Shown: positions 2,079-62,633 of the stretch, piece by piece
How positions within the stretch are numbered: position 1 is the stretch's first letter
Layout: each line of letters starts with the position of its first letter
Source: Globodera rostochiensis
Lineage: Eukaryota; Nematoda; Chromadorea; Rhabditida; Heteroderidae
DNA: 64,000 nt
Assembly (NCBI GenBank): GCA_018350325.1
Contig: JAEVLN010000006.1
Location: forward strand, 2,370,693-2,434,692
Reading direction: 5' to 3'
The notes under the pieces: generated by a model
What the model was told of the DNA's origin: nothing
Databases searched by the model: none
Seen by the model: only the letters and a program-made list of their open reading frames with translations
Program-made: the position numbers and the translations under genes

Positions 2079-2086
2079 CTAAAGAA

Positions 2087-2146
2087 TAGAGAAAGGACTT
2101 GAGCCGATCGAGATTTCAATCGAGAATCTCGATTGTCCTTTCTCTA
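2087..2146. mobile_element. 60-bp hAT-like MITE
   Basis: The termini are inverted (tagagaaaggac at the left, its complement at the right) and are flanked by an exact 8-bp direct repeat, ctaaagaa, at 2079-2086 and 2147-2154. The interior is only the word GAGATTCTCGAT in both orientations. An 8-bp target-site duplication and a TAGAG start fit hAT superfamily elements; the small size makes it non-autonomous. Confidence 0.85.
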
Positions 2147-2388
2147 CTAAAGAAGTGCCTAAAACAAAATTCTCAAAAATTACTGGTGATGCAATCGACG
2201 TTAAAGACAATGGGGAATGTATTTTTGCAAATTAAAAAAAATTTTGGTTTCACCTTGTAATCATTACAAAAAAAAAAAAATTTTTGATTGCTAGCCCCGG
2301 TGTTTCTCGTTTCCCGGTCCCGATCCCGGTTTTTGAAAAGGCAAAATAAATCCCGATCCCGGTCCACCAAGATCTTCGAGATTCTCGA

Positions 2389-2594
2389 ATGAAATCTCAA
2401 TCGATAATATTTTACCGAAATTTTTTGAGATTCGAGATTTTATTAATCTCAAACGAATCTCGATCGTTTAATTGTTTTTTGAGATTCTCGATGAAATCTC
2501 AATCGACAAAATTTTACCAAAATTTTTTGAGATTCGAGATTTTATTAATCTCAAACGAATCTCGATCGTTTAATTGTTTTTTGAGATTCTCGAT
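2389..2594. repeat. 102-bp tandem repeat, two units
   Basis: A 102-bp unit starting atgaaatctc at 2389 recurs at 2491, and a third partial copy starts at 2593. The unit is built from GAGATT/AATCTC words of the same kind as the MITEs at 2087, 19545 and 62485. Because 102 is divisible by 3 the repeat stays open in one frame, which makes a spurious ORF. Confidence 0.8.
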
Positions 2595-2722
2595 GAAATC
2601 TCGATCGACAATGGCTCGACCGAGATTTATCGAGATTCTCGATCGAAATCCCGATCGATCCAGAGCTCTAGCAACAGTTCTCAGCGCCGTTTTTGCCGTT
2701 GAGTTTTACAATTATTTTTAAG

Positions 2723-3031
2723 GTACTGAACGACCCTTCCTACGCTCAAAATGCCAAAATATTGAAGCGTAAATTTGACCAAACCCCCTTTGGGGCCAAG
2801 CAACTGTTGACCCGGTGGGTGGAATTCGGGGCCGAATTCACCGATTTGAACGAGTTAAATTTGCCGTGGGAGGACGAACTCGGCACATTGGCCTATTATT
2901 CTATTGACGTCATTCTGTTCACTGCCGTTGTGTTGGCCATATTTGCATACGTTCTATTCAAATTGGCACAATCTGTGGCAAAATGTTTCAAATCAGTTGG
3001 AAAGAGAGGGCAAAAGCTGAAGGAGAATTAA
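2723..3031 (+). CDS. UDP-glucuronosyltransferase, C-terminal exon
   Basis: This is the last exon of a UDP-glucuronosyltransferase-like gene; such enzymes transfer sugar from UDP-sugars to small lipophilic molecules at the ER membrane. The exon begins after the acceptor attatttttaag at 2722 in phase 0 with residues VLNDPSY, a typical stretch near the end of the family, followed by a run ending in LPWEDELGTLAYYSIDV, a hydrophobic membrane segment (about 20 residues around VILFTAVVLAIFAYVLF) and a short basic cytosolic tail rich in Lys. That order, a luminal end, one transmembrane helix and a basic tail, is the family's hallmark. Upstream exons are absent from the window: the DNA directly upstream is repeat. 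The gene may be interrupted by a repeat-filled intron extending left of position 1, or truncated. Confidence 0.72.
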   Translation, partial: VLNDPSYAQNAKILKRKFDQTPFGAKQLLTRWVEFGAEFTDLNELNLPWEDELGTLAYYSIDVILFTAVVLAIFAYVLFKLAQSVAKCFKSVGKRGQKLKEN

Positions 3032-3330
3032 ATACCGAAGCAAACAATAGCGAAATTGTAATTTTTGTACGTTTTTACACTTTTTTTACACATTTTTTTC
3101 TCTTTGATCGCTTCTGTGTAAATTGAATTTGTAAGCATTCGAATGCTATCATGAATAAGCTTGGGGAAAAAGTAGCGAATCTTACCACGGATCCGGATAG
3201 TTTGGCGCAATCAGTCATATAACTTAGTCACAAAAATGATATATTCAGCTTCTCAGCATTTTGAACCTTTATTCAACAAAAAAAAAACTAACCAATTTTT
3301 ATCTTTCTCAAAAAAAGTTATAGTTTAAAA

Positions 3331-3464
3331 TAGGGTTGAGCCCCGTCCCCGAACCCCGACACGGGGTTTTGGCTGGGAAAAACCCCGAACCCCGACTTTT
3401 TTAGTCGGGGACGAAAACCCCGACCCCGACTTTTCCCGCCCCGAGGGGTCGGGGCTCAACCCTA
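3331..3464. mobile_element. hAT-like MITE, CCCCGAC word
   Basis: A 134-bp element with inverted ends tagggttgagccccg / cggggctcaaccctа-type complement and an exact 8-bp target-site duplication gtttaaaa at 3323-3330 and 3465-3472. The interior consists of CCCCGAC words and their complements. Related elements with the same word sit at 10902, 12238, 35170 and 55241. Confidence 0.9.
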
Positions 3465-3472
3465 GTTTAAAA

Positions 3473-4327: not shown

Positions 4328-4358
<31 letters not shown>

Positions 4359-6505: not shown

Positions 6506-6703
6506 TAGAGACCGGACCCAAAACCAAAATTTTTTTTTTGGGTTTTTGTACAAAACTTGGACCAAAAGTTTTTTGGTTTTGGGTTTTGGGTCAACTTGGA
6601 GTAAAACCCAAAAAAAAACCAAAACCCAAAAAAATCAAAACCCAAAAAATCCCAAAAAAAAATTTTTGGTTTTGGTTTTTTGGGTCCAAGTTTCCGGTCT
6701 CTA
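6506..6703. mobile_element. hAT-like MITE, AACCCAAAA word
   Basis: A 198-bp element with tagagaccgga / ccggtctcta ends and an exact 8-bp target-site duplication ctaaaaac at 6498-6505 and 6704-6711. The interior repeats AACCCAAAA/TTTTGGGTT. It lies about 220 bp upstream of the zinc-finger gene start. Confidence 0.9.
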
Positions 6704-6921: not shown

Positions 6922-9900
6922 ATGGAAGAAACTCCGCCGCCACCCGTCGAGGGATTGCGGCGTTCTAAGCGCAACAACAAATACCATTTGGACGTCGCCT
7001 CGCTGTTGCTAAGCTCCTCCTCAACAATTCGTCGCGATGTGTCGCCACCATCGCCGGTAAAAAAAAGTGCAGGACGCAAGCAACCAGCGCAGCAGCAGGT
7101 ACATCAAGTTCAGCACGTTCAACAACAGACGGCAGTGCTGGTCGTCGAACAACAACAACAATCTGTGCCCGGATTACAGACGCAACAGCAGAAACGTCGT
7201 TCAAAACCAAAAACATCAACGCTGGCAAGCAGTACAGCGACGACGTTGGCGGCCAGTGCAGGGACGACGTTGGCAAGCAGTGCAGCGGCTGTTGTGAAGC
7301 TGAGAACGACTGTGAACAGTGCATTGACTGCGGCAATGGTGGCGGGTATGACGGCGAGCAGTACAGCGACGACTGCTATGACAACAGAGACAACAACAAC
7401 AAGCAGTGCAACAACCATTGCTCTAAAGACGGTGACGACAACTGCTGTGAGCAGTAGTAGTACGGCGATGGCAGGGATGACAACGAGCAGTGCAGGGAAT
7501 GCCATGCCGACGGTGACTAGCAGTTTACCGGCGACAGCAAGCAGTTCGATTGAAATGGTTGGTCCGCAAGCAGTACCAACACCAGCAGAGCATGAAACGC
7601 TTGGCCTTCAAACAGTGGTAAATAGTGACAATTTGAAAGAGGATAAAGCAGAAGCGTGTGTGACGACGACAACGAAAATGCCAAAGAATGTTCAGCAACG
7701 GAAGGATGAGGACAAATTGGAGGCGTTCAGTCCGCCGGCATTGACAACGGCAACATCATTGATGACAACAACGACAAGCATTTTGGAGACAAATCCGCAA
7801 CAAATATTGGACATTCAATTGCCGGATCAGATTTTGGAAGGTGAAGAGACTACTCTGACAAATGAGTGGGGAATTTGTCCAAATTTTAAAATTTAAATAT
7901 TCAAAAAAAAAAAGTTTTCCCCCGCGGGTGGTCGATCGGGGACCGTTAGAGACAGCTTCTTTTAGAACGCTAACAATTGAACCAAAAAAAAGCAACCTGA
8001 AAAAATGGACAACATCCATTGAAATTTCTGGTGGCGCCGAGCGTTTTCGATTTTTTTTTTTCATTTTTGAACCCCCGGGGGGTTTTGAACTCTGAAAATT
8101 ACCCAATAAGTGCCCCCCACCTCCCGGCGATATTCTTCATTCTTTTTTTTTACAGAGGACTCTAGCGAAGATGCACCACTTGCACCACCTTCCGAGCAGC
8201 AGCAACAGGCAACACCAAGTGCAGGTCAACCTGCACAAGTTGTTGCAGCACCATCAGCAGATGCTCCACCAGTAAAATGGACGACGACTGTTGTTGTGAG
8301 AGATTTAGAACACATTTTACACAAAATCCAGTTGAATTTCATAGGGTTAAGGCCTCGAGAACAACAACAAAAAAAACTACGATTTTTTAATTATAACTTC
8401 TGAAAGTGATCGAAACACATTCGTCGATTTGAATACAAAAAATTTCCCAACAAAAAGCTCTCGATTGATACTAAATTTGTCTAGTTGTTTTGATGGTTCC
8501 AAGCGAGTTATTGTACTACTTCAAAGGATCCCTGGCGCCCAACTGAACGACTCCCCCCCCCTCCCCCTCTGATCAAAATGTAATATTATGATCAACTCAA
8601 ACCCGAATTTTCTGATCACTAATCAGCTAAAAGAGTTGCTTTTGAAAAATGAAAATGCCGCCCACAAATTCAGAGCGAAAATGGCACCGGCGGCAGCAGC
8701 AGCAGCAACCGCGGCACATTGCCGCCGAACATGGCACCGCCGGCCACGAACGACAGTGTACAGCAGCAACAGCAGACGAAGCGAAAACGCAAAGTGCCGT
8801 TGAAGCATCAGGACTATTTCAACGGGAAGCAGGCGGACGAGGACGACGACGATTTGGAGGAGCAAATGCTGTTCAAGGCGGTCAAGGTGGAGTACACGAT
8901 GCCGGACGGGAGTAAGGTAGCGTTGGCACTGTATTCCGAGAACCTGGGCCTGTTTTTCTGTGGCTTCGAGATCTTGATCGTGAATTTTTGAACAGAGTTT
9001 AAGAATTAATAAAGCTGGCATACCTTGTGGAAACAATTTTTGCATTTTCTCGATTTTTGATCAATCAAAATGTGTCTTGATCCTCATCCAAAGATAATGT
9101 TTTCTGATTTGAATTTTACGAGGGCTGGGTACCCGGTTGTTCGAAGTTTTTTCAACTAAAACCCTGAGGGAATTCGGGGTTTGGGGCCCAAAAAACACCA
9201 ACAATCGTCCCCCGAGCATTTCAAAATGTTGGCAATTAAAAACCCCGAAAAATCGTAAATTCGGGAGGGAGGGGGGGGGTATTGGTGGAGGAGGCCACCC
9301 CAAATTTTATAACTCGAAACTTTGAATTTGTCAAAAAGCGAGCGATTGAAATGCATAATTTTAATTCCATCCCAAAGTCTGTGGATGAACACGCGTGCCC
9401 AAAGTGTCCGGCTGTTTTTGACTCGCGCGTTGGGCTGACCAATCATTTGAAATTGCACGGATCGAAGAAGGAATTTCCCTGGTGGGGGCGATTGATTTTT
9501 TTGTTTTGATTTTGATCAGATTTTTTTGATCATTTCATTTCAGCGAATTGTGCGACTTCGCTTGCACCAACAAGAAGACGATGCGCCAACATCGGTTGGT
9601 GCTAAATGTGTTTTTGAAAGTTTGAACTCTTCTAGGGTTGGCACTTCGAACCCCTGACATTTTTGATCGGGGGTTTTTTGTTGGCCGCGAAATCTCAGTC
9701 GGACGTCGGGGTGCCAAGTTGGGCTGCACGTAAAAAATTTTGGGGTTTCTCTATTTATTTTTTTTTCAAAATCACGGATCACGCCAAATTACGGCGTTTT
9801 GGGGGGTCCGTGATCACGGATCACGTTCACGGATTTTTTTTCCGATCACGTGCAGCCCTGGTGCCAACCCTAGTTTGAAACTCCTCGAAGTCGGCTGGGT

Positions 9901-10746: not shown

Positions 10747-13700
10747 AAGCAGGGCGGCGGCGGCATGGACGAAGAAGATGATGAAGAAGATGCCATGCCG
10801 GTGCTGGAACAACAACAACAGCTGCGGCTGAACTCCATGGTAGATGAACAACGGAACATCAACCAGCAACAGCAGCAGCAGCAGCTGGGGTGAGTCGAAT
10901 GTAGGATTGGCATCCCGGACGACCCCGACAATTTGGTGGCATTCCCCGACCGTCGGCAACCCGGTCCTCGACTACTTGTTAACCCCCGATCCCCGACACT
11001 CAACCCGCCGAGAAAACCGACCCCGACTTTTAAACCCCGTCCCCGACTCCCGGACGTCGGGGGCCAACCCTAGTCGGAGGACTTTACGCTTACAAATTAA
11101 TTCGAGAATTGAGAAGAAGCCTCAACTTTTTTTTTTTTTGCTTTTACAAATTTTCTTTTTAAAAAATTTATTTACATTTAGCGCTTATGGCGATGCCGAC
11201 GAGCGTTGCGTTGAAGAAGAAGAAGCCGCAGGAGAGGAAAGCAGCGGCAACGGGCGCAAGGCTTCCACCTCCAGCGCCGGAGGCGGCGGCGGAAAAGCGT
11301 ACGACCGGAACACGGTGCAGTGCCCGCACTGTCCGTTCCGCACACAGAGCAAGCAGCGACTGCAGCCGCATGTCAGCGGCCATACCAGGTGGGGGGAATG
11401 TGCTGTGTCGCCTGTCCCGAAAATCGGACAAAATAACTTTTGGGCAAAATGTCTTTTAATGGTAACTCGGACAAAAGGTTGTCCCTAAATGGTAATTTCG
11501 GACAAAAGGTCCCAAAAAATAAAATTGGACAAAATATCTTCTGTTGGGCAAAATGTCCCAAAATGGTAAATCGGAAACCTTTTGTCGTAATGTACATGTT
11601 TCAGAGCGTCGGGCTTCCGGTGTTCAGCCTGTGGCTTCAAAAGTGAGTCAAGCGGCTTTCTTCGTCGCCACAGTCAGCTGCATGACGAGCCGTGCAAATG
11701 GCCACCGGACTACGTGGGTGTGCCGCATCAACGGATTGCCAAACTGTTGGAGGGGCGAAGCCATAAAGCTGAACTGGTGGTCACTATCGCTGACGACAAC
11801 AATGGCGGCACCACATCATCGTCAAACATGGACGGAAGCGACAAGTTCAACCAGTACATGGAGCGCAACAGCAACCAGCAGCAGCAGATGGAGCAAGAAG
11901 TAGTTGAAGGAGTGGAAAGCGTGCACAAATTAATCAAAATGGAGATGAACGAGTTCAACGAAGATGAACATGATGAAATTGTCGTGGAGGAGATGGAAGT
12001 GGACGAGTGCAAAACGCCTGCTGCAGACGAAGCGGCTGCGGTCAACAAATTTCGTTGGTCAAGCCAGCTGATCGCCGACCGGTGGAACGCGTATCAGAAA
12101 CGATGTTTGGTGAGTGCCATCATTTTCTTTTTAGTACGGCATAAATTTTTTTTTTTGGCTAGTCAATCAATTCAAATAACAAATGTACAGCTTGCAAACC
12201 GCGAAAAAAAGAGCCTTCAGAACGTGACAGTTTATACTAGGGTTCAGCCCGTCCACGAACCCCGACTTTTTTTTTTTAGTCGGGGTTTTCGTCCCCGATC
12301 CCAAATTTTTTGAATTTTTCGGGGTTTTTGCTGGGAAAACCCCAAACCCCGACTTTTTGGTCGGGGACGAAAACCCCGACCCCGACTTTTTCCGCCCGAG
12401 GAGTCGGGGCTGAACCCTAGTTTAAACTCTTCTTTTTTTTTGCTTTTCATTAATCTCCATTAAATCAATTATGTTAGCTTTTGCTTAATCAGAGGATTCT
12501 AAAACTGCAGCTTTCACAAATCATACAAATTTTGTAACAGGATTTGGTCTTAGTGAAACTTTTGGCATACGGGATCGATCGGGAATTTGTTATTTAAGCA
12601 AATTCGACCACCGCATGGACCCTCCTTCATCAACTCCAACGCGACCCTCCGTCCACCATCCTTGCGATGGCTTTTTTGTGGTCGATGCCAACTCCGATGC
12701 CATTCGGGCCCGGCACAATTTGCACTTCACAACACAAGACATCACCGCTTCATGGGCCAAAATCGACTTGCATTGTGCCGTGAACTATTGGCTGAACGGC
12801 TTGCCTGGAGGGTAATTTTTGAATTATTTTTAAATTTTGGCGTAACGTTTTTGAATCTGTTTAAAAACATACCTAACATTTACATAGGACGATCGTGGGG
12901 ATGGAATTGAATATGAATTTACCGCAGCACTTTCTTCATCAAATGGACGAGGCGAAGAGCGGCGGTTTGTTAGCGTTTTGTTTTAAATTTTTTAAATATT
13001 AATTTGGCATAATGTCCAGGACAACGAGTCCGCCCTCATCAGCTGATGTGTCACTTGACGGCACCGCAACATCAACAACAATCACTGGCGCTGCTGGCGG
13101 CAAAGTGTACCGATGTCGGAGCTGCCCGTTCAGTACCGATCAGATCTTCCGATTGCAAAAGCATGAGAACAAACATTTGGTCAAGTCTGATCATCAGGTA
13201 CAGTCAGTAGTGTTTGTTCTGGGCTGGTGATCGGTGTGATCTGATCTGAACTGATCAGAGTGCGGACTTGTTGAAAATTTAAATTCAACTTCTCATGTCT
13301 CCTCTAGCCTAGAGACAAAATTGCCAATTTTTTTTCGAGTTTAGTGCCTGCCTGTTTAGTTCTTTTTTGAAAAATGCAATAAAAACGAAAAATGCCCCTT
13401 TAAAAGCAGATTTTTATTAATTTTAGGTGCTGAAAAAGAATATTCCGTCAAAAATTTGTCTCTCGCTTCGCCTTTAGACCTCTGTTTTAGACCTTGGTAC
13501 TGAAATGACCACTTAAGGAACTAAATTCAGTACCAAGGTCGTCTAAACCCCGGATTTAAACTTTAAATGCGGAGCGACAAAAATTTAGATTTGGAATATT
13601 CGTTTTCAGCATTTGAGAAAACATATTAAATTGATTTTGAGTCTTGGGACCTAGAGCTAGAGCTAGCTCTCTGATGGATTGAATTTGATTTTTCCGGATT

Positions 13701-16700: not shown

Positions 16701-19700
16701 CAAAAAACAGGGACAAAGAGTATGATGAAGAGGAGGGAAACACCAAAATGGAAGAGTCGTCGTCGTCGTCGTCACCCGAGGGGACAAAAACTGCGATCAC
16801 AGAAGCTTCTGCTGTTGCTGACACAGAAGTGGTAAATTGATTAAATATATTTTTTGTTTGTGTGCTATCATCGTGCTGCTGCATAAATTCCCCTAAACAG
16901 CAGCTGTTGCCCCAGGCATTCTCCTCCACAATGGCACAAGCCCAGCAGCAACAGCGTCGCTCCCCAATTTTCCAGTGGGACAAGTTCGAGCAGTTCGACG
17001 CCGCGTTGCCGCCAACCAAGCACATGAAAACCATGAATGGCATGGATGTTGGTGAGTGCACGGGAGTCTTGCTTCAACAATTTTGTTCAAAAATTGTTAA
17101 AAATTTACCTATCAATAGTCTGATTCGAGACTTATCAATTTATTTTTCAAGAATTGTCATCTTCTGATTCGTCCAGTGCTGCTACCACCACATCGTCGGC
17201 CTCATCAAAAATTTGTTGCTGCTCTGAATGCCCATTTGGTTCGAATTTCGAATGAAATAGCAACAAAAAAAAAAATTAAAATAATAGAAATGCTTGTCTC
17301 GAATTTCCGTAATTTTTTTTGTACATTATGTTGCGATTACGGTCTAAACAAAAAAAAAAGTGGTGGCATTTTGTTAAAAATGCCCCTAACATAACAGAGA
17401 CAGTGCACGCTGTGCTGCTCAAACTGCACATGGAAATGCATCGGCATGGCGCGTGCCGTCCGTTCGCCTGCGCACTGTGCTCTTTTGGCTGCTTCTCTGC
17501 TGAGTCGTTGCACGCGCATTTGTCCATGCACGCCTCAGCCACGGCACTGGAGGGCGGCGGTAACGGCACGCGCACGGCGGACTCGACGCCAACTGAGAGC
17601 GGAGGCGGCGGACTTTTGTGTGCTGGTGGTGGGTCAACTTTTAGTGATCGGAGGCAAATGTCTATTGATCGCGAAATATTATTGTCATTATATGTATACC
17701 AGGGATGTCGATATCGTCTCCTCAAAATACGATACACGATTTACGATATTCAGGATACACCAAAATACGATACGATTTTGGCCAAAATTACGATATTTAC
17801 GATTACGATACGATACGATATGGCTCTGAATTACGATATTTACGATTACGATACGATACACATCCCTGATGTATACCTATATCATTTTTGTTTTTGTTTT
17901 TATTCTTTTCATTTCCACTATATTTTTAAAATAATTTTAAATTTTTATTATTTTAATATTTTAAGGTCCGTTCTCTGCACTTAACAACGCTACAACAGCA
18001 ACAGCTGCTGCTGCTTCTGTGGTGGTGTCCTCCTCGGTCTACGCGTGTTCTCAGTGCAGCTTTAAAAGTAGGAAATGGTTTTTTGTTTTTGGAAGTGATC
18101 AGATGTTGTTGACTGATCGCATTTGACTATTTCATATCTGAAGTTTTGTTAACCTCAGTTTTTCATAGTCTGAAGAGGAGACAGAAAACAGACAAAAGTT
18201 TTTAAAAAAAGGTTTTTGGGTTTTTGTTTGTGGTTATTTTTTAAAACTTTGGGTCATTAATTGGCTCATTTAACATTTTTATGGCAAGACAGAGCCAGGA
18301 TTTTGAAGCCCGGATTATGATTTTGTATATCCGGTTAATCTGGGGGGGTTTTTTTTGATAAGAAATCTGATTGAATTTTGAATTGACAAATTTAATGAAT
18401 TGATGAATTTAAAGAGTTGATTCGAATTTGAAAACTTGCCCGGTTTTTTGTCCTTCCCTAATTTTAAACTGACAATACATTATTTAATCAGAAAAGTTCA
18501 GGGTGAATTTACTTTATTTCAATATTTTTTCTGTATACCAACCATCATTCAGGCACCGAGTTGGAGCAGTTTCTGAACCATCGCAAGGAACATGTCCAGG
18601 TAGAAAGAAATATGCTATTTAATTGAAATTATTTATATATTTTAAAATTATTTTTCGTCTGAATTTTTTTCTGCAACCTAAAATGATAATTTAACATTTA
18701 AAATCATATAAATTAATTAACATTTAAAATCATATAAATTAATTAGCATTTAAAATCATATAAATTAATTAGCATTTAAAATCATATAAATTAATTAGCA
18801 TTTAAAATCATATAAATTAATTAACATTAAAATCATATAAATTAATTAACATTTAAAATCATATAAATTAATTAGCATTTAAAATCATATAAATTAATTA
18901 GCATTTAAAATCATATAAATTAATTAGCATTTAAAATCATATAAATTAATTAACATTAAAATCATATAAATTAATTAACATTTAAAATCATATAAATTAA
19001 TTAGCATTTAAAATCATATAAATTAATTAACATTAAAATCATATAAATTAATTAACATTTAAAATTATAAATTAATTAGCATTTAAAATCATATAAATTA
19101 ATTAACATTAAATCATATAAATTAATTAACATTTAAATCATATAATTAATATACACAAATTTACTCTAAAAAAATCGATTTTTTTGTAGTTACTTCAACA
19201 GAGGCTGATGACAATTATTAAACGCGCAGCTGTGGACAATTTGAATTCGGCCAGTGTTGGGAATGGCGGCACAAAAATGGACAAAATATCAAAAGCATTG
19301 GGCGGACGGACAATTGACAAACAGCATTACTGTACTCGATGCTCATTTCGTTGTGAGTTTTTTAAATTAAAAATATATATATTAATTAAATTAATTCGAT
19401 GAAGGAGGTTTTTTAATTTAATTAAATCGATGGGTGATTCTATTTTTATTAAAAATATGGAATGATTAGGCTTAATTTTTTACACAAATTTATGCTTAAT
19501 TCATTTTTTTCTGTCCAAAAATTATTGATCAATCAAGTTTAAATTAGAGCAAAGACGATCGAGATTTGTTGATTGATCGACGAAATTTTATTGAGATTCT
19601 TGATCGGTCCTCAAGTCCTTGCTCCAATTTAAATTTATTTATTTAGGTGACAGTGTACAAGCGTTCACGCGCCATTGGGAACATCATCGCATCGACGGAT

Positions 19701-20086: not shown

Positions 20087-20300
20087 TAAGGTGGCACGGT
20101 ACTGGGACTTTTGGAGAAACCGGGACCAGGACTTAATTTGGGTCAAAAAAAAACGTGACTACTGGACAAAAAATGCTTGGTAAAAAAACCGGGACTATTA
20201 TATAAGGGTAAAGGAATTTTGAAAACCGGGACTAAAATTTCAGTACCAAAATGGAAAAAATTGACCATTTCAGTACTGGTCCCGGTCCCATGCCACCCTA
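20087..20300. mobile_element. hAT-like MITE, CCGGGACTA word
   Basis: Left taaggtggcac and right complement of tagggtggcat, with GGTACTGGGAC words inside. Flanking octamers ctcaaaat (20079-20086) and ctcagaat (20301-20308) match at 7 of 8. It lies shortly downstream of the zinc-finger gene. Confidence 0.85.
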
Positions 20301-22230: not shown

Positions 22231-22382
22231 AATCAAAAAAATCGTAGTTTTTTTTTGTTCTTTCTGACAAATTTTTGAATTTTTGTACCAAATCGTTTTA
22301 ACTTCTAAAAACTCTGTAAACAAAGAAAGAAATAATGAAGAAGCATTTATCGCCGGGAGAGGGGGGCGACACTTTTCGGTGA

Positions 22383-26654: not shown

Positions 26655-26889
26655 TGTATTTCATTGAGCGTTGGTGTTTTGTGAAATGCAAAAAAATGAG
26701 AATTACAGCAGAAACCAGTTGATCGCACTTCAAAAAGTGGATTTTTTTTTTTGGGGTGCTGAACATGATAGTGTACTTTATTTTGCATGTCCAGTTGGTT
26801 GAACTGTTTGAACTTTTTGGGGTGGCGAGAACATATTTAAATGATATTTATGGTTCAAAAACTGGTACTATCTTTTATATTAGCATTTT

Positions 26890-34928: not shown

Positions 34929-35933
34929 CAGAGATGTAACCGGATTCTGGACATTTTTATACCCGGAATTTGCTTGTTGGCAAAAACCCTAAATTAAATC
35001 CGGAATTTTACAAAAAGTGGCAGATTTTTCTTAGGTTTTGGATGAAAATATAGTGTATATTTGTCTGTGTGAATTTCTCAAATACCTAAACTCGGTTTGA
35101 ATGCTTTATTTTTAAATTTTTTTTAATATGAGTTTTTTGGCATCAAAATCTGCCATGTTACACTTTGCATTAGGGTTGTCACCCCGTCCCCGACCCCGCA
35201 AATTTAGGCCTTTTTTCGGGGTTTTCCCCGACCCCGACCCCGACACTTCTGACCCCGACCCCGAACCCCATCCCCGACTCGGAGTCGGGGTTAGCATACA
35301 CCCCTAAAGATGGCATCATTGAGTGACAAAATTCATTTTTTTCGACGGGTTGGCGGTGGTCTTGCGTACTGACAAACAATTTATTTCTTTTTTTACAAAA
35401 TGAGGGACAAGATCGATGGTAAGGCGGTTTGTCTCTACTGTAATTAACGTTCGTGTGGGTTCGAATCCGCTTGAGATCGATCCATTATTAACTTTTATTT
35501 GGCCTCTAGTCTCTTCACTCTTTCATTAAAGAAACATTTTTTAATAATTTTCAAATATTTTTTAATTAAAATGCGTGCAAAAGATCAATTTTTGAATAAT
35601 ATCGCATCTTTCTGAATTGTTTTTTGTTTTCATTTTCTTAACCAAGATTGCCGATATATGTAAAAATTTTGCTTTACGAGACCTCTCCCACTCCTAAAAA
35701 GCTTCAAAAAATTACCGCAAAATCCCTTAACAAATTAGTCAAAAATTCAAAATTTTCTCGTCGGCGCCTATCGGCACCGCCGAGCCCCCTTCTCCCCCAC
35801 TCAAAAGTGATAAAAATTCTCAAAAAACTTATTTGACAAATTAAAAATTATTTTCAAAATTTGAATTTTCCGGGCATTTTTGGGTCAGGAATTACGGCTT
35901 TAGGACACTGTTTGGGTCCCGTTTACATCACTG
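34929..35933. mobile_element. Possible 1-kb hAT-like element with nested insert
   Basis: Left cagagatgtaaccgg and right complement of cagtgatgtaaac pair as termini; flanking octamers match only in part (atgtgcac versus atgccctt). A CCCCGAC-word element (about 35170-35305, ends agggttgtcaccccg and complement) is nested. A weaker tRNA-like module with box B gggttcgaatccg lies at about 35425-35480. Confidence 0.45.
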
Positions 35934-36261
35934 ATGCCCTTCCCTTCTCTTCAAAATAAGAACAAATTTAAAAAATTATCGGCTCTAATGCCAATAAATT
36001 TTGGAAATTATTCAAAAAAAAAAATTTTGACCTCTAATTTTGAAGAATTTAAAAAACCCCGCAACCCCGACCCCGACCCCGACCGATTTGGGTAACCCCG
36101 ACACCGACCCCGACAGTCCCGCCCCCGAAAAACCCCGACCCCGCAATTCTCAACCCCGCACGCGGGGTGACAACCCTACTTTGCATTCTCGCAGTCCAAA
36201 GCCACCAGCCTTTTCGGCTCAAACGGGGGGCATTATTTGTTGATGAACAATGTCAGCAATG

Positions 36262-38646: not shown

Positions 38647-39583
38647 CAGGGCTGTGTCGAAATTTCGATTTTCGATTTTCGAATTTCGATTTTCGACGTT
38701 TTTTTCCTTTCGATTTTCGATTTCGACAAAAATGGGCTGTTTTTCGAAAATAATTTCGAAAGTCGGAGGTCCAGGTTTTTAAATTTTTGGCAAGGATGGG
38801 CAGTGGTCTTGCCAACTTTTTGACAAACTTTCAATCTTTTTTACATGCGTCCAACAGGTAAATTTATAGCTCAGTGGTTTGTCTTTACGATTTTGTCTTT
38901 TGGGTTCGAACCCGCTACAGTGCATCACTTTTTTAACCTTTCTTCGGCCTTCACATTCTATCCCCCATTAACGGAACATTTTTAATGATTTTCAATTATT
39001 TTTAAATTAAAATACTTACAAAAAAAGACCGTCGTACATTCACCACTCTTATGTAAAAATGTTTTCCCCGAAATTACGAAGAAAAAAGCTCAATTTTGCG
39101 AAAATTTTGGTGAAATTGCTTAACAAAACTCCCAAATTTCTCCCAGCGGCGCCTATCGGCACCGACGGGCCGCCACTGAAAGCATAAAGTCGACCAATTC
39201 ATTGTGGTTTTTGGATCATTTTTCTTAACAAATTGAGTCAAAAAATCAAAATTTTCTCGGCGGCGCCTATCGGCACCGCCGACACCCCACCCTCCTAAAA
39301 GCTTAAAATGGGCATATGAAGGCCTCTGAAATAAAAAATGCATCCTTCAAAAATTTAAAAATGAACAAGTGAATATTTCAAAAAATATTTATTAAATAAA
39401 TTATTTAAAAAAAATTTTTTCTAATCACATAAAAAAATTTTCGATTTTGTTTCGATTTTCGATTTTCGAATTTCGATTTTCGACGTTTTTTTCCTTTCGA
39501 TTTTCGATTTTCGATTTCGAACTTTTCAGTTTCGATTTTCGATTTTCGATTTCGACTTTTTTTTTACTTTCGACACAGCCCTG
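38647..39583. mobile_element. 937-bp hAT-like element with tRNA-like module
   Basis: Ends cagggctgtgtcgaaa and complement, with the exact 8-bp target-site duplication agcgggaa (38639-38646 and 39584-39591). Layout is the mirror image of 33974-34875: TCGAAA words, plus-strand tRNA-like module (38862-38934), two GC-rich hairpins (39146-39169, 39258-39283) and TCGAAA words again. The two copies differ enough to be independent insertions. Confidence 0.9.
38862..38934 (+). ncRNA. tRNA-like Pol III module inside a MITE
   Basis: Box A tagctcagtgg at 38867-38877, box B gggttcgaaccc at 38902-38913, and a T6 run at 38929-38934. Same position and strand relative to the element as in 33974-34875. Box spacing is shorter than in a typical tRNA. 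Confidence 0.6.
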
Positions 39584-44295: not shown

Positions 44296-44920
44296 CAGGG
44301 GTGCCAACAAAAATTTTTCAAAATCAGTACATTGGAATCAAATTATCAGATTTTGGGGTCAAAAATCAGTACATTTAAAAAATGTCTCAAAATATAATAA
44401 ATCATTAATTTTTCGCATGAAATGTGCGTTTTTAACCATATTTCACTCCTCCAACAATTTTTCTCAACAATTCGGGGTTGGAAATTGCAGCTTTTCACAT
44501 GGATTTTTTTTCGAAAACCTTGCCGATTTTCGTTTTTTCAAAAAAGCAATTTTTTTTTGTGAAATCTGCTTTAGTAGGGAGGGGGGTCGGCGGTGCCGAT
44601 AGGCGCCGCCGAGAAAATTTTTGGATTTTTGAAGCAATTTGTTGAGATTTGCAACCAAAATTTTAAAAATATGGTAATTTTTTGAACGTTTTTTAAGAAT
44701 AGAAGGGGTCCGGCGGTGCCCATAGGTGCCGCCGGGTAAATTTTTGGATTTTCGACTCAATTTGTTAACAAAATTGGTCCAAAAATGCGAATTATCCTGA
44801 AAATCAGTACGCCGAGCTAAAATCAGTACATTTCTGACAAAGCAATACATTTTTAATTTGTCAGATTCTGCCTTCTAATATCAGTACATTTCTGATAAAT
44901 AAGTACAAATGGCACCCCTG
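44296..44920. mobile_element. 625-bp hAT-like MITE with two hairpins
   Basis: Ends caggggtgcca and tggcacccctg with exact 8-bp target-site duplication gtcttgag at 44288-44295 and 44921-44928. Subterminal words are AATCAGTACATTT. Two GC-rich hairpins lie inside at 44587-44612 and 44710-44735. Confidence 0.92.
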
Positions 44921-51234: not shown

Positions 51235-51380
51235 TAGTGCTGCACGAGAGTCTCGGTCTCGAGTCTCGACTCGAAAAATTTCTCGGGTTTTTTGGGTCTC
51301 GGTCTTGAGTCTCGGGGTCATTTCTCGGTCTCGGTCTCGACTCTCGAGTCTCGGTAAATTTCGGGTCTCGTGCAGCACTA
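51235..51380. mobile_element. hAT-like MITE, GTCTCGGTCTCGA word
   Basis: Ends tagtgctgcacgaga and tctcgtgcagcacta with exact 8-bp target-site duplication ctcaccac at 51227-51234 and 51381-51388. The interior repeats TCGGTCTCGAGTCTCG. Confidence 0.92.
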
Positions 51381-51638: not shown

Positions 51639-52876
51639 CAATAGGGTGTCCAACAAATGAAATATAATGCGGCGATCAGACTAAAATTTGTCAAAAAATT
51701 ATTCAAATATTAAAATATATTTAAATTTTACGATGTGTAAATGGTGATCCGACGCATCGGAATGTCGCTTCGAACTTGGCTGAAAAATGTTGCAAAATGC
51801 TTAAAAACAAAGTTTTCACACAATATTCACTTTGTGTGCCTGTACAGCTTTTGGATCAGACACGAATTGAAGCACACAATGAGCACCAACGGAACACAGT
51901 AGCCGAGCACAAATGTGCTGGACGTGAACCTGAAGTTGATTGTTTAAATTTATGGCGTTTTGGTGCACCAACAATTCAAATCTGGGCATCAATTTTGACC
52001 ATTTAAAATAGAAGCGCCCCTCTCTAACAGTGGCGCTAGGAAAATTGCGCACAACAGTTTTGGATAGGGCCCGGTGAAATTAAATTTCCGGATCCGGATT
52101 TTCATTTTTGAAAATTTACCGAAGGGCATTTTTCCGGATTTTTCTGGATAAATCGGGGTCCGGAAAAATCCGGAAACATCAAAAAACCCGGATTCCGGAC
52201 CCGGAAAAATGCGGAAACATCAAAAAACCCGGATTCCGGACCCGGAAAAATGCGGAAACATCAAAAAACCCGGATTCCGGACCCGGAAAAATGTGGAAAC
52301 ATCAAAAAACCCGGATTCCGGACCTGGAAAAATGCGGAAACATCAAAAAACCCGGATTTCGGACCCGGAAAAATCCGGAAACATCAAAAAACCCGGATTC
52401 CGGACTCGGAAAAATCCGGCCGGAGTTTGGCCCGACACCGGGCCCTAGAGTGGAGAATTTACACGGTGCGCAATTCTCTGCGCAATTCTCCGTCCTCCCT
52501 AACAGCCGTCCCAATTCTTAAGGACCGATCGTTTTGATGGCCGCCGTGAATCTCATAAAATTTCGGTCAATCCAAATTTCATTTCGAGAATCTCGACGAG
52601 AACTCTCGATCAGTCCCTTGGGCTCTAGTGTTTAACAAATTTTTTAAAATTATCGAAAATTAAAGAACAAAATTTTGCTTACCAGTAAAACGCCAGCGGT
52701 GGCAGCATGTCGGAACACCTTGGAAAATTTGAAGATTTTAATTTTTAACATTACAAAAATTGGATGTCTGTTGTTGTACAACACACACACACACACCAAA
52801 CATACTTGAACACCCGAACTCTGGTGATGTTCACCACGCCAATGCGTTGCTGGTCGGGCAGTCGTAGTTGATTAAG
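51639..52876 (-). CDS. Rhodopsin-class peptide GPCR, partial
   Basis: Five minus-strand exons join in phase: 52806-52876, 52683-52718, 51831-51929, 51732-51779, 51639-51680. They give extracellular loop 2 with its Cys (FKCSDMLPPLAFYW), TM5 (STFVLGYCVPLVLIVCFNSC), the loop LIQKLYRHT then VRSDIPMRRIT, and TM6 (YTSLIAALYFICWTPYW). The TM5 Pro and the TM6 CWxPYW motif are hallmarks of class A receptors for neuropeptides. Such a receptor would sit in the plasma membrane and couple to G proteins. TM1-4 upstream and TM7 downstream were not found; flanks are MITE-filled (51235-51380, 52075-52447, 52983-53480). The gene may have long introns with missed exons, or may be decayed. Confidence 0.7.
52075..52447. 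mobile_element. CCGGATTCCGGA-word element with 41-bp tandem array
   Basis: Ends tagggcccggtg and caccgggccctа-type complement. The core (52142-52430) is about six tandem copies of a 41-bp unit, aaaaatgcggaaacatcaaa followed by aaacccggattccggacccgg-like sequence. Flanking octamers do not match. It lies in an intron of the GPCR gene. Confidence 0.7.
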
Positions 52877-56610: not shown

Positions 56611-59206
56611 TCATTTCTTTCTCCTCTTTTTGGGCTTACTCGGGCCTTCGTTTGCGTCAAACAAACTGAAAATTATTAATATTAGGGCCCGGATTTATAT
56701 TGATTAAACGCGAAATATTGACCAAAAACCCCAAATAGTGCCAAAATATTGATTAAAAAATGTGCAAAAACTGACCAAATCCACAAAACTGACCAAATCC
56801 AGTCAGTTTTTGCGTGAAAACCTTCAAAAAAAATTCGTCATTTTTTATTAATTTTTCTCTCAGAATAGAAAATGTACATTTTTCACATGTTTTGGAAAAT
56901 TTTATAAAAAATATATAAAAAATTTTGGGGGAAATGTCGATCTTTGAAGATGGATTTTTGGTCCAACAAAAAGTCATTTTTAGGAGTGCATTTTTGGTTT
57001 GAATTTTTGGGACAAATTTTGTCGTTTTTAAGGAAAAAGTCTAGAAATATTGATTTTTTTTTTCGGAAAAATGCCTAAAAATTGTATGTTTCTCAATAAA
57101 AATGCCTAAAATATTGATTTATTACTGAAAAATGGCGAAATATTGATTTATTCTCAAAAAAAAGGCTAAAATATTGATTAATATTGACTAAAAAGGCGAC
57201 TAAATGTAAAATTTTTCGAAATGAATGCCCCATTTCTGGGCTTCTCTATGATTCCCTATTCTATTCAAAAAAATAGGTTAAAATCTGAAAATCCGGGCCC
57301 TAATTAAGCAATCAAGCTTCTTACTCGTCGCCGATGCCCCCCCTGTCTTTGAAGATAATGCCGAAGCGATTCCACTGATCACGCCATTCCCGCTTGACAG
57401 CCTCCTTTTCCAACTCGGCCCATTTCGCCTCGTCGCGCTCAATTGGACAACGAACCAACAACGATTCCCGTGGCAGGCCTTGGCGTCGCAACACCAATCG
57501 CTCTCCCGTCAAATTGTTCTTCACTTCGAATGGCACCGGCACAATGTCAGCAGCAAAACAAAACAAAGGCATGATGAAATTGACCGGGTTGACAGAATTG
57601 AAAAATGCCTAAAATGGAATATGGAAGGTATAAATTGGAGATTCCAAAAAAGAAATTCAAAAATCCACCATTTTGAGTGCTTCCATTCCCGTCGGACAAA
57701 GTCTGCATCGCAACACCTTCGGAAGTCCATCCCCGCGGGGTGTGTGCAACCATTTGGCCAAAGCTTGGGTAGAAGAAGCGCCGGCACTGTCATCGGCCGG
57801 GAACTCGGGAGAAAGATAATAGGAAGTGATCGCTCGAAGTTTTGGGCAATCGCCGAGAACGGTGGGAGAGATTCGGCGCAAACGGTCGAGAGTGGAGGAA
57901 TGTAAGCGAAATCCACAAATGTTGTTTTTGATCAATGGCCAAATCCGGTGCCAAATGATTTCCCAACTGCGGTTTTGGTCATCGTCTGTGAAAATGAAAA
58001 GATTGACCCCGTTGGAGTCGAAAAGTCGGCGGATGCGTTCGAGAAAATCGATGACACTTCGGTCGATGTAACTAAAAGTATTGTAAAAAAATTGATTGAG
58101 TGAAAGACTTTTGTGGGCTTTCAAACAGGCGAGTATCCAGAAAAATTTCCGGAGGGGGAGGGAAGTCGATTCTTGGGATGTATTTTTCCCTTTTTATTGC
58201 ATTTTTGTTAAGCAATTCCCCCAAAAAATTTACTCCATTTTTGTTAAAATTTTCAAAAAAGCGAATGTTTTTTTTGCGAATTCTGCTTATTTTGGGGAGG
58301 GGGGGGGGTGTAAATTTTTTGGAAATTTTAATGAATTTTAGGGGGGGGGGGGCATGCTCCAGGGACGTAACCAGGGGGGGGGGGGGGGAAGGGGGGGGCA
58401 TGCCCCCCCCCCAAAATGAAATTTGACAAAAAAAACAAGAGGGGGACCCTATTGTTTTGCACTTTTACAATTTTTGACCAATTTTTTTAACAAATTGCCA
58501 TCAAAAGTCAAAAAAATTTGCTTTTTTGAAAATTCCTTTAAACAAAATACCTTGGCACTCAAGCCATTTGAGCGCCGCGCTCAAATTGTTCAAATTCCCC
58601 CTCCCAAAAATTTTTTCTGGTTACGTCCCTGGCATGCTCCCCCCTGCCCCCCCCCCTCCCCTCCCTGCATACGCGCCTGCTTTCAAACAATTTAAACCGA
58701 AAATGACCTTATCCAGAGGCCTTCAAATCCGATCACTTTGTCTGGAAGCGGTTCTTGCGGAACTGACAGCCGACGCTCGACTTCATGGCCAATGCATTTG
58801 ACAATTTTAGCGCAATCCCCATTAATTGCGCGAATGTACAATAGACCCAACGACCATCCATTCAATTTGAAATGCGCGTCCACCAAACGGTCAAATCGAT
58901 CGCTGATCAACGCAACTTTTAGTCCGAGCACAAAAGGGCCACCACAGAATTTGAAAACATCGAACAAAACGTCGTCGCAAACGAAACTGAAAATTCGGGA
59001 GTTTAAATGAGATGAATGGGCGCAGCAAATACACAAGTCTTCGTTTCTGTTAAATTAGTCTAAAAACTGCAAAAATTTCTCGTTAAGCCAAAAAGGGCGG
59101 CGAAACCCTTCAAAAATTAGCAGGAATTCCTTTTGGCTGTTGCGAAATAAAGCAAAACTCACATTTCTTTCAACCGTTTCTCCACTTTCTTCGGATTGTC
59201 CGACAT
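56611..59206 (-). CDS. F-box-like protein of an expanded nematode family
   Basis: Five exons on the minus strand (59163-59206, 58708-58986, 57669-58071, 57325-57608, 56611-56665) join in phase to 354 residues, [14 protein letters not shown] ... to a Lys-rich tail. Residues about 15-60 ([33 protein letters not shown]) look like an F-box helix bundle; the middle has [32 protein letters not shown] and Leu-rich turns; the end has [31 protein letters not shown] and [17 protein letters not shown] associate this arrangement with a large Globodera-type family; substrate-adaptor activity in an SCF ubiquitin ligase is inference. The last intron holds a 610-bp hAT-like element and the second intron (58072-58707) CCCCC/GGGGG-rich repeats. 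Confidence 0.75.
56693..57302. mobile_element. hAT-like element in terminal intron
   Basis: Ends tagggcccggattt and aaatccgggccctа-type complement are inverted. The interior repeats AAATATTGATTAAAA words. Flanking octamers attaatat and attaagca share only the first five bases. It fills the intron between 56665 and 57325. Confidence 0.7.
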
Positions 59207-59753: not shown

Positions 59754-59774
59754 GGGAAATTCAACATTTTCAGC

Positions 59775-59905
59775 ATTTTTCTCCTTTTTGTGAACAATTT
59801 GCGCTAAACTTTTTAGAAAATTAAAATCTGCAAAATTTTCAATAAATAAATAATTTAACAATTACAAAAGGAGAAAAACAGAATTTGTACATATTGGAGA
59901 CAAAT
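59775..59905. repeat. 130-bp dispersed repeat, two copies
   Basis: The sequence gctaaactttttagaaaa ... ttaacaattacaaaaggaga-aaaacagaatttgta recurs at 61610-61710 in the same orientation with substitutions. No coding potential is evident. Confidence 0.7.
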
Positions 59906-61900
59906 TCATCAAAACCAGGGGTCCCAGATGTGAGGTTTTAGCCCTCATTTTGTGGCTTTTTGATAGTCCAATAAGGCTAATTTTTAAAATCAGGTTTAGC
60001 CACTTCTTGTGGCTTTTTAGAGTTTGATGAGGTTTTTTGAGGCTTTTTGAAATTTTTCACTGATGAAATGGAAAATTTCTATTAATTTTGAATATTTGGC
60101 GTAATGTTCTTCCATGTTTTTTTCTGTATTTTCATTTTTAATGAATAGGGCCACAAATTATATAGACAAAAAATCTCGAAATATGGTCATAAAATACGGA
60201 TGAAAAATTGTAAAATATGGATCAAATATAGGCAAAATACGAAATAGGCAAAAAGTGCCAAATAGGCTCCAAAAATTGGGTTTAACCAATCAGGTAGGTA
60301 GGTTATTCATATCATTTCTTGAAATTAAAAGAATTCTAGCGGAGTTTTTTTTGAAATATCAAAAATGCTTGAAAACTTCGGTCTTAAAAAGTTCGATAAT
60401 TATGGGGTGCATTTTTGGCAATAAAACAATTTCTTGAAGGATTCACATGTAAATAACAAATTAACACCCACTCTAACTTATTTCATCATCATTGGTTACA
60501 AATGTTATGCATAAGTATTTTTATGCTTAAAAACCAAAAAAGAACATCAAGAGCCAAAAAAAAAGATTTTGGGGTCCGAAAAAAGGATATTTTACAAAAT
60601 GTACAAAAATGCAGCAAAATGTTTATTTTTGGCATAAAATGTGCTTTTTTAATCATATTTTTCTTCGCCAACAATTTTCCTCAACATTCGGGGTTTGAAA
60701 TTGCAGCTTCTCCCATGGAGTTTCGAAAAATTTGCCGATTTTCGATTTTTCAAAAATGCAATTTTTTTTTTTGCGAATTCTACTTTAGTAGAGGGGGGGG
60801 GGGAGGTCGGCGGTGCCGATAGGCGCCCGCCGGGAAAATTTTTTGATTTTCGACTCAATTTAGTAAGAGATTTGGTCCAATAATATGATCCTAAAAATCA
60901 GTACAAACAGAATTTGGATAAAAATTAACAAATATTGTTACATTTTGGACATTTTCAAGCGAAAAATTCAAAAAAGGATGCGAAAAATGCTTGAAAATTA
61001 ACAAATTTGGCCATCTGTCTAAAGATTATTCAAACTTTAAACAAAAATTCTCCAAAAACTCCAGAAATCTCAAATAAAGGCCAAAAAAGGACGTGTACCC
61101 CAAATAAAGGACAAATCTTTAAAAAAAGGACATTTCTGATTTTATAGATTGGGATACCCTAAAAAAGGACAAATCTTTAAAAAAAGGACAGATGCGACCT
61201 CTGATCGAATAACAGAATAAAAAATGAAAACAAAAAGTTTTTTAAATCTTAGATGTCGAAATCATAGATTAGATGCTGTCATATGATAAATCTGATGTCA
61301 TATCCGTGATCAGCGACCTCAATAACCTCTGAGTCCTTCTCAAAGTTGCGTAAAACCCGTTTTTTTGTGGGACCATGACCCCAATCGTTATGGGCGATGA
61401 ATCAATCGGTGAGGGCAGACACCAGAAAAATGATTAACAAAATCGGCGAGTAAGGGCAAATTCCGTCCAATGTAAGGATTTAAAAGTTTGATTGGCCGCA
61501 CGCAAAAACTAAAGTAGAGCCAATGTCGCTAATACTTTTTCGAGAACCCCATTCGAGAAATCTCAAACGAACAAAATTTCCAGTCTTTTTCCTCCTTTCT
61601 GGGAACATTTTTTTTTCGCTAAACTTTTTAGAAAACTAAAAGCTGCAATTTTTTAATAAATAAATAACTTAACAATTACAAAAGGAGAAAAACAGAATTT
61701 GTATTGGAAACAAATTCACCAAACACTTTCTTTTTTTGCGTGTAAAAGGAAAAAAAAGAGGTTAGAGTTGGTCGGGACCGGTCGGCCGGTTTTTGGAATC
61801 CCTGTCCCGGTTTTTGAAAAGTCGAAATCCCGAACCCGGCAGGATCGGGATTAACCGGGATAAAAATGCACCCCCTAAGAATGGGATTTTTGAGCAGAAT
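59906..61900. other. Gene-free repeat region
   Basis: Word arrays TTTTTGAGGCTTTTTG (59920-60060), AATATGG-TCAAAATACGG (60140-60260), a GC-rich hairpin at 60808-60833 inside a copy of the 44460-44680 core, and AAATAAAGGACAAATC words (61070-61200). No exon is supported. Confidence 0.5.
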
Positions 61901-61903
61901 ATC

Positions 61904-61990
61904 CATATGGTTTAGTGGTGAGTGGTGGAGGCAGTTTAGTGTGGTTGGGGTGGGGGATCAAATCTCCGACTGTGTAAATAATTTTTTCCG
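61904..61990 (+). ncRNA. tRNA-like sequence
   Basis: Box A-like tggtttagtgg at 61908-61918, box B-like ggggatcaaatctcc at 61953-61967 and a T6 run at 61982-61987. Stems do not pair well enough for a functional tRNA. It resembles a decayed tRNA gene or a SINE head. Confidence 0.4.
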
Positions 61991-62484
61991 GCTTTTCTGA
62001 ACATTTACGATGGTTGTAAACAATTCTAAAAATTCTTTTACATTTTTCCCATTTTTAAAAAATATTTCAGATGACAATTCAAAGTTTTTCATTTATTTTT
62101 GTTGGACAAAATCAAAAAACCATAGGGGGCTTTTGTGTTGCATATCATTTTGGACCGATTTTGAACAATTTGGGACTTTATAGATGGGGGAGGGGAGAGT
62201 TGAGTTTTTACAAATTTTTATCAAATAAAATGTTTCCAATGAGATAAAATCAAATTAAGATTTACAAAAATAACGAGAATCATTGACTCCAAATACGACA
62301 CAAGCACCATCAAATCGCACTTTAGAAAATAATTGTTCTTTTTATTGCGGAAATCCATTTTTATTTTTTGATACACACAGCTTGTGGGTTTTTCTGTTTG
62401 TTTGAAAGAAATAGAAAATGGGAAAAGCGTAAAATGAATTTCACAAAATCTTTCACATTCCGTCTGGTTCCGCCGTGTTGTTTT

Positions 62485-62619
62485 TAGAGACCGGACCGAA
62501 CGAGATTCTCGATCGTAATCTCGATCGAAAAAATTTGTCATGACCGAGATTTTTCGAGATTCGAGAATTTTCGAGATTCTCAATCGAGAATCTCGATCGG
62601 TCCCCAAGTCCGATCTCTA
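62485..62619. mobile_element. hAT-like MITE, GAGATTCTCGATCG word
   Basis: Ends tagagaccggacc and ccgatctcta; flanking octamers gttgtttt (62477-62484) and gttgttgt (62620-62627) match at 7 of 8. It ends 14 bp from the stop codon of the gene at 62634-62935. Confidence 0.8.
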
Positions 62620-62633
62620 GTTGTTGTTGTTGT

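Follow-up and report, generated by a model that had tools for sequence, protein, structure and literature searches.

We analyzed a 64,000-nucleotide stretch of the Globodera rostochiensis genome (C56:2370693-2434692, hereafter the window; the 92.6-Mb assembly has 80 contigs, labeled C1, C2, C3, and so on), which carries numerous short hAT-like elements. An initial annotation had described them as sharing one design, a nearly fixed tip followed by a short repeated word specific to each family, and this design holds. The window was scanned for inverted tips of the form YARNG, the consensus of hAT terminal inverted repeats (TIRs), matching at 9 or more of 10 positions and lying 40–3000 bp apart, a scan that other tip types escape. 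Among the 65 tip pairs found, the longest exact flanking repeat measures 8 bp in 12 and 3 bp in 3, and is lacking in 50; no pair has one of 4–7 bp or of more than 8 bp. A chance origin of the tips was ruled out by 40 dinucleotide shuffles of the window, which gave a mean of 69 tip pairs and no flanking repeat of 8 bp or more. The 12 elements with an exact 8-bp target-site duplication (TSD) and three with a single mismatch cover 9.2% of the window. They are listed below by window position; no strand is assigned to any of them, and MITE stands for miniature inverted-repeat transposable element.

2087..2146, hAT MITE: tip TAGAGAAAGGAC, word TCGAGA/ATCGAG, TSD CTAAAGAA
3331..3464, hAT MITE: tip TAGGGTTGAGCC, word CCCCGAC, TSD GTTTAAAA
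5131..5727, hAT element: tip TAGAGCCCGAC, word CTGGAT/ATCCAG, TSD ATGTTTAT
6506..6703, hAT MITE: tip TAGAGACCGG, word CCCAAAA, TSD CTAAAAAC
12238..12419, hAT MITE: tip TAGGGTTCAGCC, word CCCCGAC, TSD with one mismatch
17700..17868, hAT MITE: tip CAGGGATGT, word ACGATA/ATCGTA, TSD ATGTATAC
20087..20300, hAT MITE: tips TAAGGTGGCA/TAGGGTGGCA, words CCGGGAC and CAGTAC, TSD with one mismatch
33974..34875, hAT element: tip CAGGGCTGTG, word TCGAAA, TSD GTTGGGGC
35171..36178, hAT element: tip TAGGGTTGTCAC, word CCCCGA, TSD CTTTGCAT
38647..39583, hAT element, the second with tip CAGGGCTGTG and word TCGAAA: TSD AGCGGGAA
40773..41047, hAT MITE: tip TAGAGACCGG, word CGGGA, TSD GCAATGAC
44296..44920, hAT element: tip CAGGGGTGCCA, word CAGTACA, TSD GTCTTGAG
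51235..51380, hAT MITE: tip TAGTGCTGCAC, word CGAGAC, TSD CTCACCAC
58360..58631, hAT-like element: tip CAGGGACGTAAC, TSD GCATGCTC, without a clear word
62485..62619, hAT MITE: tip TAGAGACCGG, word TCGAGA, TSD with one mismatch

The initial annotation was right to report many hAT-like elements with 8-bp TSDs. Its count of nine exact ones was too low: all ten that it named are exact, and the elements at 35171 and 58360, absent from its list, add CTTTGCAT and GCATGCTC. In a spaced genome sample made up of twenty 3-kb stretches, so short that they also overlook long elements, 40 tip pairs yielded three exact-TSD elements and one with a single mismatch, and the window is therefore richer in elements than the sample. 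The pattern TAGGGTTGAGCCCC of element 3331..3464 matches the genome 39+56 times, and never when reversed (0+0).

With Hermes taken to represent the Ac group of hAT transposons, we pooled 60 exact TSDs from the window, the transposase-bearing elements, and the tip-pair samples described below, leaving out the three of the spaced sample and that of element L142. Of these, 47 have T at base 2, 51 have A at base 7, and 39 have the two together, against 5.7 expected; TA at bases 4–5 occurs in 7. The reported preference of Hermes is nTnnnnAn (PMC10368747) and the reported consensus of Buster is nnnTAnnn (PMC3517528), and Buster-type target sites were rejected on these counts. By their TSD consensus, the elements and their short derivatives are classified as Ac-type hAT DNA transposons.

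The genome contains 100 matches to the hAT dimerization domain (PF05699) and 49 to zf-BED. We examined 41 hAT domain loci: the 30 best, of which ten were covered by nine extended stretches, plus a further 11 near a BED match. At 26 of the 41, the domain is enclosed by an element that has an exact TSD and a tip and word of its own (14 at once, 4 after extension, and 8 of the 11). The domain of L065 lies in an element whose TSD has one mismatch, not counted in the 26, and L018 is without the full tip pattern. Ends were not found for 12 of the 30 best loci (L011, L013, L020, L027, L028, and L034, extended; L024, L026, L030, L035, L036, and L038, unextended), nor for L061 and L066 among the 11. 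Several transposase-bearing elements are 2.2–3.5 kb long, with reading frames broken into several pieces, as by introns or decay. The C-terminal dimerization domain was rechecked on two exons. BED-like fingers accompany many of the loci, and several zf-BED matches lie on the same strand, upstream of the hAT domain. PDB searches with two BED regions returned nothing significant (one BED-domain chain at E 0.53). The TSDs, the tips (YARNG being demanded by the scans), the PF05699 matches, and the enclosed transposases together bear out the hAT identity proposed for the window elements. The enclosed families combine the following tips and words:

TAGAGCCCGG with CGGGA
TAGTGTTNGGC with CGGTAA or CGGTAT
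TAGAGCCCGG with CGAGA
TAGAGACCGA with CTGGA
CAGGGNTGNG with TCGAAA
CAGGGATGG with TCGGAA
CAGGGATGTG with CCAGAA
(T/C)AGTGNTGCAC with CGAGAC
TAGGGCTGCTC with CCGAGA
TAGGGTTGCTC with AAACCG/AACCGA
TAGAGTAGGTC with CCGGGA(C)
TAGGGTTGCAG with CGGGGA

Two arrangements of hAT genes were observed besides. At C3:1838445-1846664 (L027, L078, and L028), two gene copies with the word CCCAAA and identical BED regions face each other in a large inverted pair. At C11:100852-112057, five equal-scoring hAT domains stand in tandem, about 2.7 kb apart, with one stop each.

The initial annotation had suggested looking for hAT transposases with the same tips. For 9 of the 15 window elements, the word is also found in a transposase-bearing element or at a hAT gene locus. 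The TCGAGA elements at 2087 and 62485 are among them, the latter with counterparts L016 and L017. CTGGA (5131) has its partner with a transposase domain in L023; TCGAAA (33974 and 38647) is found in the transposase-bearing elements L022, L032, and J021, given as counterparts of 33974; and CGAGAC (51235) recurs in L069 and L059, which have a hAT domain and a BED-like finger. The first CGGGA words of 40773 lie at bases 11, 17, 23, and 28, matching the transposase-bearing J010. For two elements the ends of the partner were not seen: CCCAAAA (6506) recurs at the hAT gene locus J027 on C3, whose ends were not found, and for ACGATA (17700), the possible partner genes L139–L141 and L146 carry the word CGATAT and showed no tips. 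By word, these nine therefore have the transposase-bearing relative expected of a MITE besides their TIRs and TSDs. For 3331, 12238, 20087, 35171, 44296, and 58360, no partner was seen among the hAT loci examined.

Most of the words listed in the initial annotation do fall inside the 15 elements, as the copies inside against those in the whole window show: CCCCGAC 26/43, TCGAAAA 31/60, TACGATA 10/11, ACGGGATTCCCG 6/6, AACCCAAAA 6/14, GAGATTCTCGATCG 1/2, and CCGGGACTA, AATCAGTACATTT, and GTCTCGGTCTCGA 2/2 each. Three others have no support from a TSD-flanked element. None of the three window copies of AACGGAAAA lies inside the 15, and the TAGGGCCCGG inverted tips that enclose CCGGATTCCGGA and ATATTGATTAAAA lack an 8-bp duplication. 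The two stretches with TAGGGCCCGG tips are perhaps older members of the same design; they are given here with a third tip pair, again without assigned strand.

52065..52447, TAGGGCCCGG inverted tips: filling CCGGATTCCGGA, no TSD
56683..57302, TAGGGCCCGG inverted tips: filling made of the ATATTGATT word, no 8-bp TSD
9633..9872, TAGGGTTGGCAC inverted tips: no adjacent TSD

The same tip is found with several words. In the genome, TAGAGACCGG matches 698+652 times (reversed control 312+30) and TAGAGCCCGG 736+762 times (reversed control 66+26). From the first 100 matches listed for each tip, on contig C1 and, for TAGAGACCGG, also at the start of C2, we took all pairs in opposite orientation less than 1 kb apart, that is, 17 and 20 elements, respectively. 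The TSDs of these 37 pairs, all outside the window, are exact in 17, have one mismatch in 11, and more in 9 (6, 4, and 7 for TAGAGACCGG; 11, 7, and 2 for TAGAGCCCGG), so that 28 of the 37 have at most one mismatch. Twelve TAGAGACCGG elements carry TCGAGA, two CCCAAA, two CTGGA, and one GGGATC; nine TAGAGCCCGG elements carry TCGAGA, three each CGGGAA, CCGAGA, and GATCGA, one CTGGA, and one no word. Three unpaired tip matches bore CGGTAC, CCCAAA, and ATATGC. Since CCGAGA and GATCGA are close to TCGAGA, we count five clearly different words among the pairs; the tip TAGAG(A/C)CCGG is borne with at least five such words. Many of the words fit the pattern CGNNA (CGGGA, CGAGA, CGAAA, CGGAA, CGGTA, CGATA). 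The most frequent hexamer fits it in 11 of the 16 transposase families, compared with 27 of 391 null windows; this pattern had been noticed before it was tested, CGGTA variants make up three of the eleven, and 9 of 400 null windows without a top word were dropped. Words of MITE-only families, such as ATATGC, TAGGCA, CAGTAC, CCCCGA, and CTGTTC, lie outside it.

We then read the positions of the words from both tips of the 26 transposase-bearing elements, the ends being called UP (upstream of the transposase) and DOWN (downstream); MITEs were oriented by taking as upstream whichever end had its word closer to the tip, a choice that biases them toward the upstream pattern. At the UP end, the first word begins at base 11–13 in 19 of the 26 elements. 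Compared with the UP end, the first word of the DOWN end comes later in 20, at an equal position in 5 (J021, L022, L032, L059, and L068), and earlier in one (L037). The register is clearest in the clade with TAGAG and TAGTG tips. There, the DOWN end has its first word exactly at base 25, in one orientation, for CGGGA, CGGTA, CGAGA, and CTGGA; for the first three of these words, further copies follow at 31–32 and 37–38, and the UP end has words at 11–13 and 17–18 with an inverted copy at 22–24. A circular-shift test on four families (CCCAAA left out) gave p 0.0005 for the UP end and 0.0003 for the DOWN end, and the DOWN bases 11–24 have only 1–7 of 14 letters in common between families. Over the 12 entries compared, the first word lies at base 25 of the DOWN end in 8 and at bases 11–13 of the UP end in 10. 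The eight entries outside the test are L142, L043, L109, and L118 with base 25, L053, W6506, and L102 with another position, and W40773, whose first 64 bp showed no word. DOWN positions 33 and 40 are common to both CAGGGATG families (TCGGAA and CCAGAA). What is new here is that the letters of the word vary between families and its placement is mostly constant. Among the matches listed, judged by titles and the beginnings of abstracts, we found no account in the open-licence PMC literature of many subterminal words on one hAT tip with the register kept.

One family shows how a word can differ between close copies. The pattern TAGTGTTNGGCACGGTACGGTA matches the genome 66+63 times and never when reversed. 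In a sample of 20 copies (every fifth of 100 listed matches, palindromes being masked in counting), CGGTAT occupies most word sites in 18, and the other two have a single such site (CGGTAA). Among the transposase-bearing copies, five are of the CGGTAA type (7–18 sites vs. 0–3) and one, L015, is of the CGGTAT type (14 vs. 2). In the first 160 alignment columns of L019 and L081, nine of which are gaps, six substitutions occur, all at word base 6, four in forward and two in reverse copies. This is the cleanest of the four unlike-type pairs shown; the alignment becomes poor further in, and the pair L014/L090 has spacer changes too. With L084 and L092 set aside for having a single usable site apiece, the share of differing columns between unlike-type pairs is 435/867 at word base 6 versus 687/11027 elsewhere; for like-type pairs, the values are 9/152 versus 85/2611 and 112/1332 versus 915/17538. 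Because the types are defined by word base 6, the result lies in the agreement of sites within a copy, not in the difference itself. The word letters seem to change in place at most copies, not by re-amplification. The related element L142, which shares the tip and has an exact TSD, contains 47 copies of CGGTAA on both strands versus 7 of CGGTAT, and since this relative uses CGGTAA, the CGGTAT type may have arisen later. Relatives of the CGGTAA finger accompany CGGTAC (L145) and CGATAT (L139, L140, L141, and L146), each one letter from CGGTAA or CGGTAT, and in the sister pair L069/L060 the fingers are similar (distance 0.33) and the words are CGAGAC and CCGAGA. It is as if the word and the part of the protein that reads it had changed together.

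On the strength of the directly observed TSDs, tips, words, same-word transposase elements, register of one clade, and two uniform word types, we consider it quite likely, as the best explanation of the whole, that these are Ac-type hAT elements whose tip serves the transposase core and whose word serves the BED finger, the letters having diverged with the geometry largely kept. In this model, the outer approximately 10 bp would be the TIR handled by the conserved core, and the inner word a half-site for the N-terminal BED zinc finger of the family's own transposase. A multimer of the transposase might be held at the element end by several such copies, each fixed in position and orientation. 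Between lineages, the half-site would have come to differ in its letters, giving one tip with many words; the letter changes would occur in place at most copies of an element, presumably driven by selection to match a changed finger. A more specific version, to which we give somewhat less than even chances, holds that BED specificity moved stepwise, the words fitting CGNNA, and that the sites were rewritten in concert while their number, spacing, and orientation stayed nearly constant.

The closest parallels to this model are hAT elements. Like the elements described here, Hermes of the house fly is reported to have 8-bp nTnnnnAn TSDs, a short TIR, a BED finger, half-sites in both orientations, and unequal ends; its BED domain recognizes subterminal AAG(T/C) repeats, and at the left end two such repeats, next to the TIR, form a quasi-palindrome (PMC10368747). 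Because the palindromic words (ACGGGATTCCCG, CGAGATTCTCG, and CGGAATTCCG) and the unequal ends fit this picture and that of Ac, the words are most likely putative BED half-sites in a set geometry. Hermes is reported to have one word in one element, with the left end alone bound by BED, unlike the many words on nearly one tip found here. Maize Ac/Ds elements similarly have an 11-bp TIR and subterminal AAACGG repeats bound by the transposase, and their short members share only the TIR and a few repeats; in contrast to our elements, they have one word per family, and no word turnover is described in the portion of the source considered (PMC3260210).

Several points weigh against this reading. The Hermes right end is reported to be bound by no BED (PMC10368747), so that the DOWN-end words may do something other than BED binding, and some Ds1 elements without AAACGG are reported to be still mobile (PMC3260210). 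The fingers of J010 and J013 were recognized by relationship only, falling below Pfam zf-BED at E 0.001, and a search for a transposase of the CGGTAT type with an intact BED, for comparison with the CGGTAA-type finger, found none. The pair L019/L081 was selected after the alignments had been inspected, its types are defined by the compared base, and the pairs share ancestry. Word cores for the register were picked by eye, and the register has exceptions: the UP start lies outside 11–13 in 7 of the 26 elements (L018, J029, L062, L063, L064, L067, and L037) and, among the 12 entries, at 16–17 in L102 and L109, and the DOWN end has CCCAAA at 21, L102 at 28, and W40773 with no word within 64 bp. 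In Mantel tests, word similarity was not significantly related to that of the transposase domain (r −0.10, p 0.77; 12 families with one element each, CCCAAA being left out for lack of ends) or of the BED (r 0.16, p 0.14, 12 BEDs; two variants gave r 0.19 with p 0.11 and r 0.10 with p 0.21). Close BEDs may have unlike words (J013 CGGTAA, L139 CGATAT), and distant clades nearly the same one, as L016 and L069, both CGAGA. In the family set used for the domain, domain against tip gave r 0.15, p 0.12 and tip against word r 0.27, p 0.027. Word and transposase are matched family by family; a general code across families is not supported. The proposal that words change in step with diverging transposases is therefore upheld only insofar as every word belongs to a transposase family of its own; across families, the similarity of transposases or of BEDs has no significant correlation with that of the words.

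The lack of correlation and the CGAGA shared by L016 and L069 would also be expected if these were independent hAT families with unrelated histories, by old divergence or horizontal entry, each with its own word and little change within this genome. Strong support on only 2 of the 11 inner branches of the hAT domain tree (81 columns) points the same way. We nevertheless regard this as doubtful: the clade with TAG(A/T)G tips is supported at 89/94 and has similar tips and a common register, and the CGGTAA and CGGTAT forms are close copies of one family in one genome. The initial annotation had instead proposed that a word is replaced and re-amplified, a new word entering an end and spreading by tandem or slippage copying while the old one is erased. 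Tandem arrays do exist (22-bp units at 40788-40865, 41-bp units at 52160-52419, and 102-bp units at 2378-2611), L012 has an extra unit relative to L019, and VANDAL targets are reported to have evolved through tandem repeats (PMC5735166). The idea is unlikely, however, given that within the clade families with different words largely agree in where their first words lie and how these are oriented, and that CGGTAA and CGGTAT copies differ by one letter, base by base, in little-changed surroundings. That the words are ordinary low-complexity or minisatellite DNA happening to lie near tips is extremely unlikely. Copies do occur outside the 15 elements (CCCCGAC 17/43, TCGAAAA 29/60), but the words are enriched at both ends of TSD-flanked elements, keep a register, and recur in transposase-bearing elements; a low-complexity origin was rejected on the end enrichment and the register.

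VANDAL elements belong to the Mutator-like superfamily. In Arabidopsis, their VANC targets are reported to be a short non-coding repeated motif that turned over in a coordinated manner, changing set-wise between C-type and T-type subfamilies, and that was proposed to coevolve with its reader (PMC5735166). The words described here could likewise be silencing-escape or host-factor sites rather than transposase sites, and the VANC motifs of VANDAL21 differ by one letter in a similar way (YAGTATTAC vs. YAGTATTAT; PMC5735166). We find this very unlikely, as the words lie near the tips at both ends, even in elements of 60–900 bp, and hAT transposases are reported to bind such repeats (PMC10368747, PMC3260210). 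VANDAL also differs in its superfamily, in having an anti-silencing protein as reader, and in having internal tandem repeats with no tip register. Plant CACTA elements (Jozin) are reported to combine a fixed CACTA tip with a multicopy 12-bp subterminal motif (TATTTGTAACTA, TATTTGTAACGG, and TATTTGCGTCAC) whose letters differ between species (PMC8978399); they are of another superfamily, with a 3-bp TSD and variation between species in what is described, against many words in one genome here. The initial annotation knew of no described mechanism for such change; with the VANDAL/VANC precedent and the CACTA motifs published, the kind of change is already known.

How DNA-binding specificity changes when many sites must change along with it is an open question on which this genome bears. 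It contains numerous related transposases together with their sites, with the geometry largely held and the letters changed, which makes the coupling testable. The matching of words could be the reason why related transposases sharing a nucleus do not mobilize each other's short derivatives, and tip, word, and register together give a practical rule for assigning orphan MITEs to transposases. If BED specificity did shift stepwise with concerted rewriting of sites, these elements would form a natural record of change in a protein–DNA code across dozens of sites.

Other repeats were observed in the window. The GC-rich near-palindrome GGCGGTGCCGATAGGCGCCGCCGA occurs at about ten places, among them 413-508, 24538-24633, 34248-34343, 44577-44672, 50662-50757, 55549-55617, and 60790-60858, and lies within at least two hAT elements (33974 and 44296). 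A unit of about 1175 bp, in two to three tandem copies at 23761-26786, has TTCCGATTTCCGAC arrays resembling the ends of the TCGGAA hAT element L025. A 26-bp minisatellite of about 18 copies occupies 18691-19150, and its leader reappears at 56290. A gene region is duplicated in inverse orientation at 8383-9161 and 21701-22240, in pieces 88–100% complementary. Elsewhere in the genome, the SL1 RNA model has 46 matches over its full length, in keeping with a nematode, all below the family cut-off and many in arrays, including a long array at C12:4258591-4283892 with a spacing of about 1.2 kb.

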